In this document: positions 21,247 through 27,390 of the stretch, in pieces
Position numbering within the stretch: position 1 is the stretch's first letter
Layout: each line of letters opens with the position of its first letter
Source: Desulfoplanes formicivorans
GTDB taxonomy: Bacteria > Desulfobacterota > Desulfovibrionia > Desulfovibrionales > Desulfomicrobiaceae
Direction of reading: 5' to 3'
DNA: 64,000 nucleotides
Assembly (NCBI RefSeq): GCF_001748225.1
Contig: NZ_BDFE01000016.1
Coordinates: forward strand, 62,001-126,000
Program-made: the position numbers and the translations under genes
The notes under the pieces: generated by a model
Seen by the model: only the letters and a program-made list of their open reading frames with translations
Databases searched by the model: none
What the model was told of the DNA's origin: nothing

Positions 21247-22071
21247 ATGCCACAGATAGCCGTCTTCATCGACAACATGACCATGAATCCCCATCTGGCC
21301 TGCGAACACGGGCTGAGCATGGGGATTATTCTTGATTCCGGAGAACTGTGGATCTGGGATACCGGTCAGACCGGTTTGTTTATGGGCAACGCCATGGCCA
21401 TGGGCATTCATCCGGGACGTGCCACAGGAGTGGTCCTGAGTCATGGTCACTACGATCATACCGGCGGTCTGAATCGGCTGTGGGAACAGGCTGATTTCCA
21501 GGGGCCCATTTACGGCCATCCCATGATCTTTGCCCGGCGCTTTGCCTCTCATGGGGAGACTCCCCCACGCGCCATCGGACTGCGCACCAATGCTCCCCGC
21601 AGACTTACCAAACAGTTCATTTCCGTTGAAAACCGTATGGAACTTGCCCCGGGTCTGACCATGTACACCAACATCACCAGACAACCGGGACATTACGAAC
21701 CTATCCAGGGATTTTACCTGGATCAAGAAGCCACCCAACCCGATACCATCCCCGACGATGCCTGCCTGGTTCTTGAATCGCCCAATGGACCGATTCTCGT
21801 TCTCGGATGCTGCCACAGCGGCCTGGCCAACACTTGCGAACATATAGCCGAATGTCACGGCATCGATCGTTTCCACAGTCTCATCGGCGGACTCCATCTG
21901 GGCAGGGCGTCAGACGAGGCCATCGAAGAAACCTGCAGAACCATCAAGCGTTTCGGCTTCGAGTCCGTATTTGCTGGCCACTGCACGGGAGAAACGGCTC
22001 TGCCCAGCCTCCAAAAATCCCTGCCTGACATCGTCCACCCCATGGGTTCGGGCCTGTTCGTCAAATTGTAA
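21247..22071 (+). CDS. Metallo-beta-lactamase-fold hydrolase
   Basis: A 274-residue MBL-fold protein with SHGHYDHTGGL (HxHxDH), a later His in GCCHSGL, an Asp in DTGQTG and a C-terminal GHCTG. The spacing and the N-terminal IDNMTMN resemble the family annotated as 7,8-dihydropterin-6-methyl-beta-D-ribofuranosylaminobenzene-5'-phosphate synthase-like proteins, in which substrate is rarely known. Its 3' end overlaps the convergent acetyltransferase gene by 11 nt. I would not assign a substrate. Confidence 0.85.
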   Translation: MPQIAVFIDNMTMNPHLACEHGLSMGIILDSGELWIWDTGQTGLFMGNAMAMGIHPGRATGVVLSHGHYDHTGGLNRLWEQADFQGPIYGHPMIFARRFASHGETPPRAIGLRTNAPRRLTKQFISVENRMELAPGLTMYTNITRQPGHYEPIQGFYLDQEATQPDTIPDDACLVLESPNGPILVLGCCHSGLANTCEHIAECHGIDRFHSLIGGLHLGRASDEAIEETCRTIKRFGFESVFAGHCTGETALPSLQKSLPDIVHPMGSGLFVKL

Positions 22072-23128
22072 CAGCAGGGTCTTCGACCTGCGAACACAGC
22101 GCCATGACCTCTCTGCGATCACGTTCGATCGCATTGCAGAGCTCCCGGGTTTTTTCCGAAAGAATCTGTATCTGACTGAAATGATTCGGTGTCTTCTGCA
22201 TCATCATGGCATCGACACCAAACCATCCGGGAAGAACCGCTCCGAAGTAGAACCCGCGTCGTCTGAGCCCGGAACAGATCAACCCCGCTCCCGGTGATGC
22301 CAGGGAAATGAACACCTGGTTCACCTCAAAAGAATCATCTTCCAGTTCCCCATCCAGAACCTCCACTCCATCCCCGCCCACATGGGACAGATGAATACGT
22401 CTGATGGAGGGAGCCTCGAACCGTTCCACCCGCATTTCCGTCGAACCGCTTCCTTCCTCCTGACCGTCCGCCTTGAAACGCCGACTGACCGGAACTCCGG
22501 CGTACAGTTTTTTGATCATCTCTTCATAAACCGGGGGGATAAAAAGCGTCTGTCCCCCGTCCTCCTTGATGATGGAGAAAAAAAGACACGCCGTCCTTTC
22601 CCGTGAACCAACGTCTTCTGATCTGCCCTCATTTACCGGCATGAGCGCAACTTCCAGCCCTGTATAGGGGAAGTGAAAACTCTCAGCCATTTTCTGGGAA
22701 ATGAGATGATTGCACACGGCCTCGCCGTACAGGGCATGCAGTGAAGGTGTTTCGTCAAAATAGGTCATGGTTGCTTTGACCAGGTCCGAAGCGATCCCGC
22801 GCTTGCGATAGGCAGGAGCCACCATCATCATGCCCAGTTCCTTCATGCCCGGATGAGGGGCACTGCTCTGAAACATGGCATGAACACCCACCACCGTATC
22901 ATCGGAAGTCAGGCATACCAGGGTATGAACCTCTCCACTTGCATGACGGGCGCAAAGTTCATCGGGATCATACCAGATATCCACCGGGTAGGTTTCGCCG
23001 TAAAGAGCATACGTGAGCCGGGCTATGCCGGTTGCATGGTCAGGGGCAAAGGGACAAATACGAGTGGCAAGACCGGGCGTGTATACCCCGGGATCAGCAG
23101 CAAGCCGTTGCAAAAGTTGAACGCGCAA
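22061..23128 (-). CDS. GNAT-family acetyltransferase with extra C-terminal domain
   Basis: A 355-residue protein. The start at 23128 is a TTG with AAGGAGG 6 nt upstream. A longer reading from 23173 lacks a ribosome site. The first half is a GNAT fold: the acetyl-CoA loop is MMMVAPAYRKRGIASDLV. The second half (about 230-320) ends LRRRGFYFGAVLPGW and DAMMMQKT. This resembles the end of the divergent neighbour, which has LLERGFETAVFVPL and DQLVLQCC. The substrate is unknown, but the shared tail and divergent layout suggest the two proteins act in one process. Confidence 0.75.
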   Translation of the reverse strand: MRVQLLQRLAADPGVYTPGLATRICPFAPDHATGIARLTYALYGETYPVDIWYDPDELCARHASGEVHTLVCLTSDDTVVGVHAMFQSSAPHPGMKELGMMMVAPAYRKRGIASDLVKATMTYFDETPSLHALYGEAVCNHLISQKMAESFHFPYTGLEVALMPVNEGRSEDVGSRERTACLFFSIIKEDGGQTLFIPPVYEEMIKKLYAGVPVSRRFKADGQEEGSGSTEMRVERFEAPSIRRIHLSHVGGDGVEVLDGELEDDSFEVNQVFISLASPGAGLICSGLRRRGFYFGAVLPGWFGVDAMMMQKTPNHFSQIQILSEKTRELCNAIERDRREVMALCSQVEDPAVTI

Positions 23129-23315
23129 GGATGACCTCCTTATTCTGGGTGGCAAGATGGACAGAAGGGACAAACAAAGGATTTGTTATTGCCAAGGCGC
23201 TTTGTAATCAGTACTGCACAGGCGTTCAACACGCATTTATGCTGGATACCTTGCACGCGCAACGTATTTTCTTCCAGGTTACCCCCAAGAAGATGCCCAT
23301 TCCACGAGGCAAAGC

Positions 23316-24665
23316 ATGTCTAACAATGATGTCCGCTCATGTTGCTATCCCGCTCGAAATGAAGCCATCCCCGAGGTAACGGGTTTCATTGAAACAACCG
23401 CAAGCCGGCACGGATTCACCCCTCAGGCCAGCATGAAACTCCAGCTGGCCGTGGAAGAAATCGTCCAGTACATTGCAGGGACCGCTCCGGGACAAATGCT
23501 TACTTTCATGCTGCAGACCTGGGCCAATCACATGACCCTTTTGGTGGAGCTGGCAGCAGATGCCGTTGACCTGCGTATTTTCAATCTCACCTGGAAAACA
23601 GACCTGGAAAGCCAGGCATCCCTCAATGCCATGGGTCTGAACCTGGCCGCCCGCTATGCAGACCGGTTTGCCCTTTCCCAGACGGAAAACGGCATGCTCA
23701 GGTTCCAGTTCGGGGTGGACAGGGAAATCCCGGACATGGCCTCCGTAACAACACCCCCTGCGCCTTTTTCCCATTGGAGACTCACCCGGCCACGCGCCCA
23801 GCACATGCCCATGTGCCACGCGTTGGCCGCAAGGTGCCTGGGCCGATTCAAAAACCTTCCATCCCTCATCCATGTGGGGCGTCTTCACAACCTGTGCCTC
23901 CATGACGAACTCAACGGGGCCGTGGCTGTTTCCGACCAGGACCAGGTGGTGGGATGCGCCCTCTCTGCCCGTGGCCAGGATGGACTGACCTCTTTCTTCG
24001 GGCCCTTTGTCAGCCTCTCTTGTTCGACGGAGGAACGGCAGAGAATGGCGGTCTCCCTCACGGAATACGCGCTGGAACAGACCGCCCGCAAAAACATTCC
24101 GGGGATGTACTGCCTTTTCAACGATCCGGATTGTTTCCCGGCCCATTATTTCACCCGCATCGGAAAAATGGCCCTGCTGTGCCGGGATGGGAGCCGTGAA
24201 CACGTTCCCGCCCATTACTTTCCCCTGCGCGACGACCCCGGAGCTGATCTTTATTTTCATCCCCTGGTTCAGGATTTTCTTCAGGCCCGCATCAGGGAAC
24301 AATATCTTTCAAGACAGATGATCGATGCCAGCCCCCTGCACCAGGAGATCTGTTCCAAACACCCCCATACCGTGTTGGGAGTGGACATGGACCCCAAAAG
24401 TCTTACAGTGCGGATGCATCTGCTAATGTATGGAGCCGATGTGGTGACAATCCTTGATGATCATTTGCGCCTTTTTGCTCAAAAGGGCATGAGAACCCTT
24501 TTGTTCACGACCGATCTTTCCCGTCCTTCCCATGCCCTTATTCTTCCCCATCTCCTTGAACGAGGATTTGAAACCGCCGTATTTGTCCCCCTGGGCAATC
24601 AGGGAGGGGACCAACTGGTCCTCCAATGCTGTCGGGACGAAAACGGGGAGGGAGAACCGTCATGA
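23316..24665 (+). CDS. Anti-sigma-factor-type ATPase fused to GNAT-like domain
   Basis: A 449-residue two-part protein. Residues 1-140 look like an RsbW/HATPase_c_2 histidine-kinase-type ATPase: MKLQLAVEEIVQYIAG (N box) and NAMGLNLAARYADRF (G-box-like), with no phospho-acceptor domain. Residues about 155-445 resemble a GNAT-like acyltransferase region and end LLERGFETAVFVPLGNQG and DQLVLQCC, like the divergent neighbour. There is no signal sequence. The stop overlaps hisC by ATGA, so both are translated from one message. The ATPase part could sense or switch the acyltransferase part; that is inference. Confidence 0.65.
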   Translation: MSNNDVRSCCYPARNEAIPEVTGFIETTASRHGFTPQASMKLQLAVEEIVQYIAGTAPGQMLTFMLQTWANHMTLLVELAADAVDLRIFNLTWKTDLESQASLNAMGLNLAARYADRFALSQTENGMLRFQFGVDREIPDMASVTTPPAPFSHWRLTRPRAQHMPMCHALAARCLGRFKNLPSLIHVGRLHNLCLHDELNGAVAVSDQDQVVGCALSARGQDGLTSFFGPFVSLSCSTEERQRMAVSLTEYALEQTARKNIPGMYCLFNDPDCFPAHYFTRIGKMALLCRDGSREHVPAHYFPLRDDPGADLYFHPLVQDFLQARIREQYLSRQMIDASPLHQEICSKHPHTVLGVDMDPKSLTVRMHLLMYGADVVTILDDHLRLFAQKGMRTLLFTTDLSRPSHALILPHLLERGFETAVFVPLGNQGGDQLVLQCCRDENGEGEPS

Positions 24666-25795
24666 AATTCCAACCCTCCATGCTCGTTCCCGATTTTGTA
24701 CGGACCTTTGAGCCCTATATTCCGTCACAACCTGATCATGTGCTCAAGCAACGTTTTGGCGTCGATCATCTTTACCGGTTGAACAACAACGAAAATCCCC
24801 TGGGACCACCACCGGCTGCAGCCTCCATTCTGCGTTCCATGGATCCCATGATGGTTTCGCGCTATCCCAGCGGAGACGCCAGTGATCTGCGCACCAAACT
24901 GGCCCACCACCTGGATATGGGACCCGATCAGATCGTTCCGGGCAATGGGGCCACGGAAATCATCCAGTTCGTGATCAAGGCCTTTTGTGAGTCCGGGGAC
25001 AACATCGTCACTGCCGACAAGACCTTTGCCGTGTATGAATGGGTGGCTGAATTCTCCGGCATTGAGAGCCGTCTCACCCCTCTCAGGGACAACCGATTCG
25101 ATCCCAAGGCCCTGCTCTCCTTTATTGACCGCCGCACCAAAATCGTTTTCGTGTGCAATCCCAACAATCCCACGGGCACGTACTGGACCCTCCAGGAACT
25201 TGACGACTTCATGCAGCACGTGGACGGACGCTGCATTGTTGTGCTGGACGAGGCCTATTGCGAATTTGTGGAAGAGCCCGACTTTCCCGACGGATCCCTT
25301 TTGGTGGAAAAATATCCCAATCTTCTTGTCTTTCGGACCTTTTCCAAGATGTATGCCCTGGCCGGCCTGCGCATCGGCTACCTGATCGGTCATCCGGCCA
25401 CGGTCTATGACGTCTGCCGCACAAGAATCGTCTATTCCACCAATGTCATTGCCCAGCAGGCGGCCCTTGCGGCCCTGGATGACAAAGAACACATCACAAG
25501 AACCCGAAACATGGTCAGGGAATCGCGAAACTATCTGGAAAAAGAATTTGAACGCCTTGGCCTGCCATGCATCAGTGGACAGGGAAATTATATTGTCGCC
25601 CGCATGCCCTTTAACGACCAGCTGGCCTACAGGATGCTCATGAAACAGGGCATGATGGTCAGGACAATGACCGGATTCAGATTCCCCAATCACATCAGGA
25701 TCACTTTGCACAGCAAACCCGTCATGCAACGCTTTATCAACGCCCTTGAGCACGTTCTGGACCAGTGGTCTGCCTCCACCAGAAATCCGGTCTGA
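24662..25795 (+). CDS. hisC: Histidinol-phosphate aminotransferase
   Basis: A 377-residue PLP enzyme of fold type I: LNNNENPLGPPPAA, FVCNPNNPTGT, VVLDEAYCEF, then the PLP lysine in TFSKMYALAGLRIGY and the C-terminal NHIRITLH with its carboxylate-binding arginine. It makes histidinol phosphate in histidine synthesis. Start 24662 overlaps the previous stop (ATGA) and follows GGGAGGGAG. Length is normal. Confidence 0.93.
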   Translation: MKFQPSMLVPDFVRTFEPYIPSQPDHVLKQRFGVDHLYRLNNNENPLGPPPAAASILRSMDPMMVSRYPSGDASDLRTKLAHHLDMGPDQIVPGNGATEIIQFVIKAFCESGDNIVTADKTFAVYEWVAEFSGIESRLTPLRDNRFDPKALLSFIDRRTKIVFVCNPNNPTGTYWTLQELDDFMQHVDGRCIVVLDEAYCEFVEEPDFPDGSLLVEKYPNLLVFRTFSKMYALAGLRIGYLIGHPATVYDVCRTRIVYSTNVIAQQAALAALDDKEHITRTRNMVRESRNYLEKEFERLGLPCISGQGNYIVARMPFNDQLAYRMLMKQGMMVRTMTGFRFPNHIRITLHSKPVMQRFINALEHVLDQWSASTRNPV

Positions 25796-25877
25796 ATTCT
25801 CCCCGACAACAAACCAGAAATCCACCATGGTGGCCAATATCCAGGAAATCGGCTGCAGTTCCACCTGATTTGACGCC

Positions 25878-26168
25878 ATGGACAATGCATCAGGTGCCCT
25901 GCCCTTTGCCACGGACGTCCATCCTCCCGACGTGCTCTGGCCTGGTGCCAAACGGTCAGGGGTTCCCCACGCCATCAACAGGGCCATTCACACGGGCAGG
26001 GCCTCGGTAATGGCACGCAACAGGATTCGTCCCATTACTGACGTCCGTGTCTTGGGCAGCATATGGACAGCAGGTTGCAGGCAACCTCCTGTTCCGACTC
26101 CTGGATCATGGCCCCGGGTCATCGGATTGATGGTGTGGGATCAATGGCGATTGGTGGTTACCAAATGA
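25878..26168 (+). pseudogene. Decayed fragment of a molybdopterin hydroxylase (aldehyde oxidoreductase/xanthine dehydrogenase-like)
   Basis: An open frame of 96 codons whose start, SGALPFATDVHPPDVLW, followed by KRSGVPHA and IHTGRA, resembles the first part of the Mo-binding subunit of aldehyde oxidoreductase or xanthine dehydrogenase. There the pattern is TG--xFAxDhxxPGMLxxAhhRSPxPHAxI--IDT. The middle (ITDVRVLGSI, SWPRVIGL, WDQWRLVV) is weaker. Full enzymes have about 750-900 residues, and nothing upstream or downstream completes this one. It sits between hisC and a convergent MFS gene. I read it as a remnant; a chance resemblance is possible. Confidence 0.45.
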
Positions 26169-26175
26169 AAGATGC

Positions 26176-27390
26176 CTACGGTTGCTTGCAGACAGACGGC
26201 TGTTCATCTGACACCCTTTGAGGCAGCCGGGACACGCACACTACCCCACCCAAAGCGCAACAGGCTGCCACGCCGAAAAGTATGGCAAAGGAAGAGGTCC
26301 TGCCCATGATAAAGGCCCCGCACAGGGGACCGACAACAAAAGCCACATCCATCATGAACAGCATGAGGTTGGTGTTGAGACCGCGCAGGTCATCGGGAGA
26401 GATCAGGAACATGACAGCGTTGAGCAAAGGCAAAATAATGCCCAGACATATGCCATATATGACTGTAGCCAGAAGGAACTGGGGTCGGCCGGAAAGGTGA
26501 CCGAAAAAAACCAGGACCAGGCAGAAAAGTATGCCCGTACCCAGCAAAACCCTTTTTTTGTCCCACCTGTCGAAAAACATGTTCCCCCCAAGGCGCATGG
26601 CAATGATGGCCGCGGTGGAGACGGTAAAAAACACGCCTGCATTGGCCACGCCGATAGTCGGGGCAAAATCCTTGATCATGTAGAGGATGGTGGTGGAAGC
26701 CGTAAAAAAACAGAAGTTGGCCCCCAGGATATACCCAATGCCCGGTGTTGCCAGATTGGCAAGCAACAGGGCCAAGGAAATGGACTGTCTTGGGGGCCGC
26801 TTTTGATCCCGTTTTTTTCCGGCAAGAATGCCGCGCATGGGCGCCAAAAACAACAATGCAGGGATAACAAAGACCACGGCCATGGCATAGGTTGTGGACT
26901 CATCCAGGCCAAACCGCGCAAGGGCCCACTCGTTGAGTGGCGGCAAAATCGCATAAGGAATCAGGCTGGAAAGGGAAAAGATGCCAAATCCCTGCCCGCT
27001 CTTTTCCGGAGGGATGAACAGGACAAGAAGGGTTGCCACCGAAGAAAGCAGCACCACAAAGGCCACACCGTGAAGAATACGCACGGCCACCAATGCGGGA
27101 ATCGTCAAGGCAAAGGGATACCAAAGAAGAGCCAGACCATTGACCAATAAGGAAATGTACACATAGCGCAGACCATTGCCGGCATGCAGAAACGGACTGA
27201 TGAAGGGGCGAACCACACAGGCCGTCAGGGGCTGCAGAATCAGAAGAACCCCTATCCATTGATGGGGGATACCAAGGGTTACGAGGTAATGATAAAAGGT
27301 ATAAAAAATGGCGATATTACAAAAGCCGAACAAGGCTGTCAGACTTAATGTGACAAACCCGTAGGAAAAAAGACTGGATCTGGAGGCCAT
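26176..27390 (-). CDS. Major facilitator superfamily transporter
   Basis: A 404-residue inner-membrane protein with about twelve hydrophobic segments and an MFS layout: FGFCNIAIFYTFYHYLVTL at the start, a first cytoplasmic loop (VRPFISPFLHAGNG), VRILHGVAFVVLLSSVATLL, a polar central loop (AGKKRDQKRPPRQS) and a second bundle. The substrate cannot be told from the sequence. No regulator is adjacent. Confidence 0.85.
   Translation of the reverse strand: MASRSSLFSYGFVTLSLTALFGFCNIAIFYTFYHYLVTLGIPHQWIGVLLILQPLTACVVRPFISPFLHAGNGLRYVYISLLVNGLALLWYPFALTIPALVAVRILHGVAFVVLLSSVATLLVLFIPPEKSGQGFGIFSLSSLIPYAILPPLNEWALARFGLDESTTYAMAVVFVIPALLFLAPMRGILAGKKRDQKRPPRQSISLALLLANLATPGIGYILGANFCFFTASTTILYMIKDFAPTIGVANAGVFFTVSTAAIIAMRLGGNMFFDRWDKKRVLLGTGILFCLVLVFFGHLSGRPQFLLATVIYGICLGIILPLLNAVMFLISPDDLRGLNTNLMLFMMDVAFVVGPLCGAFIMGRTSSFAILFGVAACCALGGVVCVSRLPQRVSDEQPSVCKQP

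Follow-up and report, generated by a model that had tools for sequence, protein, structure and literature searches.

Predicted folds, common descent and gene neighborhood of a co-inherited pair of GNAT-related proteins in Desulfobacterota, one of which carries a degenerate RsbW-like domain

The window analyzed here, a 64,000-nucleotide stretch of the Desulfoplanes formicivorans genome, contains two neighboring, divergently transcribed genes that raise the question of what a protein with both a switch-kinase fold and an acetyltransferase fold would do next to a second acetyltransferase relative. The first gene, HG (23316..24665, + strand), encodes 449 amino acids, and the second, GN (22061..23128, − strand), encodes a two-part GNAT protein of 355 amino acids from an ATG at 23128, or of 370 amino acids from an alternative upstream TTG at 23173. 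A first-pass annotation had taken this pair, together with an adjacent metallohydrolase, for a small regulated acylation module. The answer we tentatively favor is that GN is an acyltransferase of a small-molecule pathway, and that HG is its non-catalytic regulatory partner, to which a STAS protein would dock.

Searched as a single sequence, HG matched Pfam HATPase_c_2 below the gathering cut-off (E = 0.031, 14.7 bits against 27.4), had no GNAT match in Pfam, and reached an RsbA-type anti-sigma model at E = 0.0089, while a profile of 27 HG relatives picked up RsbW among the PDB chains (E = 0.014). The best Foldseek matches of its AlphaFold2 model (mean pLDDT 71.8, from an alignment of five sequences, the same depth as for GN) were RsbW/SpoIIAB structures (6m37_C, E = 2.4e-7), and VIA-align placed residues 3–137 on SpoIIAB (1th8_A, Z = 13.9) and residues 152–305, in a model of middling confidence, on GNATs (Z up to 14.9). 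Because the predicted structure matches both families where single-sequence searches were weak, it settles the fold assignment and bears out the proposed fusion of RsbW-like and GNAT-like domains. HG thus comprises a predicted RsbW/SpoIIAB-like domain (residues ~3–137), a GNAT-like domain (~152–305), and a second GNAT-like half (~310–440), the latter folded and fold-searched, like the C-terminal half of GN, only as part of the whole chain. GN passed the Pfam Acetyltransf_1 cut-off (E = 1.7e-7, 32 bits against 20.7), and its model (pLDDT 81.9) matched GNATs over residues ~20–194 with Z up to 13.3, in agreement with its description as a GNAT protein. It is this predicted fold that suggests an acylation role for GN.

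HG and GN also resemble each other. A direct comparison of the two family profiles was significant (E = 3.8e-9) and aligned the C-terminal segments RRRGF-FGAVLPGW / LERGFETAVFVPL, so that the likeness noticed in the first-pass annotation reflects true homology; an unrelated HisC profile used as a control gave a probability of 1.7%, which is not significant. Both proteins further match a canonical family of ~500 amino acids with an intact HATPase followed by two GNAT-like halves, one member of which is encoded elsewhere in the same genome (G000:C9:192342-193868, ~510 aa) and shows unmistakable HATPase_c_2 (E = 5.8e-24) plus Acetyltransf_1 domains. HG matched the profile of this canonical family along its whole length (E = 8e-23 over 413 columns) at ~15% identity, GN matched it over the GNAT part (E = 5.7e-47), and the HG N-terminus also matched the profile of the RsbW proteins encoded in related clusters (E = 1.8e-10). 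These profile matches identify HG and GN as paralogues, derived from or sister to the canonical family. As to direction, we infer that a fused HATPase-GNAT-GNAT ancestor came first, from which, judging by sequence, GN would have dropped the ATPase and HG, though retaining the RsbW-like fold, would have lost its ATP site together with the GNAT motif. A side observation concerns a canonical HATPase-GNAT gene in another locus, near which lies an NRPS-like protein with condensation, AMP-binding, PP-binding, and NAD-binding reductase domains (L087:121-5085).

Residue conservation, counted from alignments and sequence patterns, shows that the ATP-site and GNAT-motif residues of HG (23316..24665, + strand) are degenerate. 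The Mg-binding Asn of the N-box is replaced in all 46 HG sequences, 45 of which nevertheless have the N-box Glu pair. In the G1/G2 boxes, most of the 46 have exchanged the Asp and the first glycines for other residues, and 38 still have the last glycine. The label of ATPase initially given to HG is therefore misleading, since the residues that bind Mg-ATP are gone throughout the family. The same losses bear on the possibility that HG is an RsbW-type anti-sigma switch kinase, with a GNAT part modifying or sensing something and the pair regulating transcription. The closest solved structures are indeed RsbW/SpoIIAB, several of them in complex with RsbV/SpoIIAA or a sigma factor, but the family no longer has the N-box Asn, the G1 box, or most of the G2 box, we recognized no recurrent sigma factor family among the conserved neighbors that we scanned, and a separate canonical RsbW is usually present in partner-switch clusters. 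We regard this explanation as very unlikely.

On the GNAT side, the motif V/C-x(1-2)-H-x3-Q-K/R was found in 29 of 38 GN proteins and in all five canonical proteins, as opposed to a single one of the 46 HG. The first GNAT domain of the window GN (22061..23128, − strand) is canonical and includes this motif as VCNHLISQK. A strict CoA P-loop pattern (R/Q-x-x-G-x-G/A) was rare everywhere (1/46 HG, 3/38 GN, and 1/5 canonical) and did not tell the three groups apart, and the variation of the CoA P-loop among GN relatives counts against the reading of GN as an acyltransferase with HG as its partner. HG, for its part, could bind CoA or substrate by a diverged route, which would likewise speak against that reading.

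Of 297 genomes sampled within the class, 69 contained an HG relative, and a phylum-wide sample gave 39 of 297, ~31 of these being full length. Named relatives include Desulfomicrobium, Desulfobacula, Desulfopila, and Pseudodesulfovibrio (four named loci with an HG alignment profile, none with the HG sequence alone). The closest sampled relatives belong to the same family as D. formicivorans and include a Desulfomicrobium contig (G214:C231). Two genomes of the class with weak or canonical-family matches (G048 and G059) were set aside, leaving 67 HG-positive genomes, and a close GN homologue occurs in 65 of these compared to 1 of 230 HG-negative genomes, in a count that ignores shared ancestry. 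The two genes lie at most 12 kb apart in 54 of 57 same-contig pairs. This neighborhood comparison upholds the pairing itself, while the face-to-face arrangement seen in the window is not kept: most relatives place both genes in a larger cluster, ordered HG, HisC-like aminotransferase, three-subunit molybdenum hydroxylase, MFS transporter, and GN. Within 11 kb of the 46 HG genes, based on a simple gene caller run on 60 sequences complemented by tblastn, we counted HisC 45 times, GN 34, MFS 32, XdhL 31, XdhM 31, XdhS 30, AMP-ligase 14, and an NMT1-like binding protein 12 times, although some of these matches, foremost those to MFS and AMP-ligase, belong to large superfamilies. Cluster-type XdhL was likewise present in 53 of 67 HG-positive and 1 of 230 HG-negative genomes. 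The metallohydrolase (21247-22071), which the first-pass annotation had included in the module, is excluded as a cluster member, as no homologue occurs at any related locus. In the open literature that we searched, we found no description of this RsbW-like/GNAT-like fusion or of the cluster, consistent with the initial impression that no system with this layout had been reported.

The closest neighbor of HG is the hisC paralogue (24662..25795, + strand), whose ATG at 24662 overlaps the HG stop codon (24663-24665) as ATGA, confirming the overlap noted at the outset. A HisC gene directly follows HG in 41 of 46 loci, often with an overlap. The window copy, a PLP aminotransferase, passes TIGR01141 (310 bits, cut-off 276.55), a second hisC in the same genome scores better (G000:C20:122888, followed by a cmk-like gene), and many cluster hisC copies fall at or below the cut-off. 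Among sampled genomes, a second, HG-linked hisC was found in 21 of 21 HG-positive and 0 of 16 HG-negative ones. The presence of the second hisC, the linkage to HG, and this restriction to HG-positive genomes together rule out the window gene as the housekeeping copy and mark it as a cluster-dedicated paralogue.

This association, tighter than that of HG with anything else, is an argument for a different view of HG, in which it would itself be an active pathway enzyme, either a diverged acyltransferase or a conjugating enzyme, working with HisC and carrying the RsbW-like domain as a structural relic. HG does have strongly conserved residues of its own in the GNAT-like and C-terminal parts, where G198, G214, P215, D287, D352, and D377 (HG alignment numbering) are invariant. 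However, 45 of 46 HG lack the H-x3-Q motif of GN and the canonical family, and the retention of an ATPase fold stripped of its ATP site is more easily explained by binding than by a relic. We thus consider a catalytic HG somewhat doubtful, and retain as our working model a non-catalytic HG that partners GN.

The window copy of the cluster differs from most by lacking the hydroxylase. Between hisC and the MFS gene, tblastn revealed a ~58-aa remnant of the XdhL (large subunit) N-terminus (25839..26012, + strand, best E = 3.6e-12), and right after it, in a different frame, what is likely to be left of the C-terminal end of XdhM, the FAD subunit (26014..26115, + strand). This second match is weak alone (E = 0.017) but found at the expected position with a QVAGNLLFRLL motif. 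As these remnants stand in this order between hisC and the MFS gene, the hydroxylase operon was probably deleted here, leaving a xanthine-dehydrogenase-type scar (25839-26115). Neither cluster-type XdhL nor the cluster-type binding protein was found elsewhere in the genome, and the window HG is the sole copy found when the genome is searched with HG. The transporter gene beyond the scar (26176..27390, − strand) encodes a protein 41–43% identical to copies in related clusters. The remaining window genes could in principle be leftovers with little function after this deletion, as the scar itself and the divergence of HG would suggest, the window HG being just 19–26% identical to relatives of which many are 34–57% identical to one another. 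Yet HG, GN, HisC, and MFS each have an intact frame, and HG-HisC-GN is also retained without the hydroxylase in several other genomes, which makes such decay improbable in our estimation.

The remaining question is whether the module is regulated, as the first-pass annotation had supposed. Partner-switch genes lie within 11 kb of HG in 14–16 of the 46 loci (RsbU 16, RsbW 15, and STAS 14, of which RsbW and STAS could include other members of their families), so that about one third of related clusters carry such a module, which speaks in favor of regulation; in the other two thirds it is absent near HG, and the D. formicivorans genome has a single SpoIIE-domain match and no cluster-type binding protein. 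These observations count against our model, and with partner-switch genes near only about one third of HG, regulation is its weakest link, the strongest being the joint occurrence of HG with GN, the HisC paralogue, and the hydroxylase. An obligatory link between the partner switch and HG can be ruled out, and the cluster-type binding protein, although enriched with HG (42/67 HG-positive genomes), also occurs in 32/230 HG-negative genomes, a further point against the model. In some loci, an NMT1/THI5-like periplasmic binding protein (L061:5775-6719 and relatives) adjoins a dCache-HAMP-SpoIIE phosphatase (RsbU-like); this pair, which exists without HG as well, is a possible ligand sensor for the partner switch.

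Additional context for GN comes from fused relatives. In some genomes a GN homologue forms the middle part of a fusion of ~1340 amino acids (L079:6536-10585, − strand, and also L086, L089, L090, and L094), flanked on one side by an AMP-binding domain and on the other by an aromatic amino acid ammonia lyase. Its position between an AMP-ligase domain and a lyase points to acyl chemistry. The NNLLRFL stretch of the fused lyase we take to be phenylalanine-type at the PAL/TAL selectivity residue. Runs of neighboring GN-type genes were also seen in other genomes of the phylum (four genes at G383:C100:7654-11778, and G411:C84).

Our working model would then read as follows. From a HATPase-GNAT-GNAT ancestor, two sisters would have come to share out the work, with GN keeping the acyltransferase active-site motif and HG the RsbW-like fold, and both would serve a small-molecule pathway with the HisC-type aminotransferase, the xanthine-dehydrogenase-type hydroxylase, and the MFS transporter. 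GN would acylate an amine with CoA as the acyl donor, and HG, itself non-catalytic, would have a regulatory or scaffolding role. Through its RsbW-like domain HG would dock a STAS (RsbV-like) protein, and a partner switch composed of the sensor phosphatase RsbU, the STAS protein, and the kinase RsbW could in this way turn the pathway enzyme on or off. A more specific version, with HG as a double pseudoenzyme sensing STAS phosphorylation through its dead RsbW-like domain and relaying it to GN, in a partner switch that controls a metabolic enzyme in place of a sigma factor, strikes us as rather unlikely. Partner switches are best known as controls of sigma factors, and a widespread cluster in which an acyltransferase and its inactivated sister of switch-kinase fold lie near partner-switch genes offers a test of switch control over biosynthetic enzymes. 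The cluster also points towards an undescribed product of sulfate reducers and their relatives, and the pair illustrates how a single fused ancestor has apparently given rise to two paralogues, one catalytic and the other not.

Compared to known systems, HG residues 3–137 have the predicted fold and the conserved Glu pair of the switch kinases RsbW, SpoIIAB, and UsfX, and STAS, RsbW, and RsbU genes occur in clusters of about one third of HG relatives. Unlike these kinases, HG lacks the ATP-binding residues and is fused to a GNAT, the cluster RsbW is a separate gene, and no sigma factor was recognized among conserved HG neighbors. With canonical HATPase_c_2 and Acetyltransf_1 fusions, HG has in common the three-part order and profile similarity over the whole length, but these fusions score above the Pfam cut-off for HATPase and still have H-x3-Q, whereas HG does neither and GN is devoid of the ATPase. 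Relative to the histidinol-phosphate transaminase HisC, the window copy passes TIGR01141 yet is a second copy beside a housekeeping hisC. Finally, GNATs such as PA4866/YncA and the phosphinothricin acetyltransferases have the fold predicted for GN residues 20–194 and HG residues 152–305, whereas HG and GN each bear a second GNAT-like half, and HG does so without the usual motifs.
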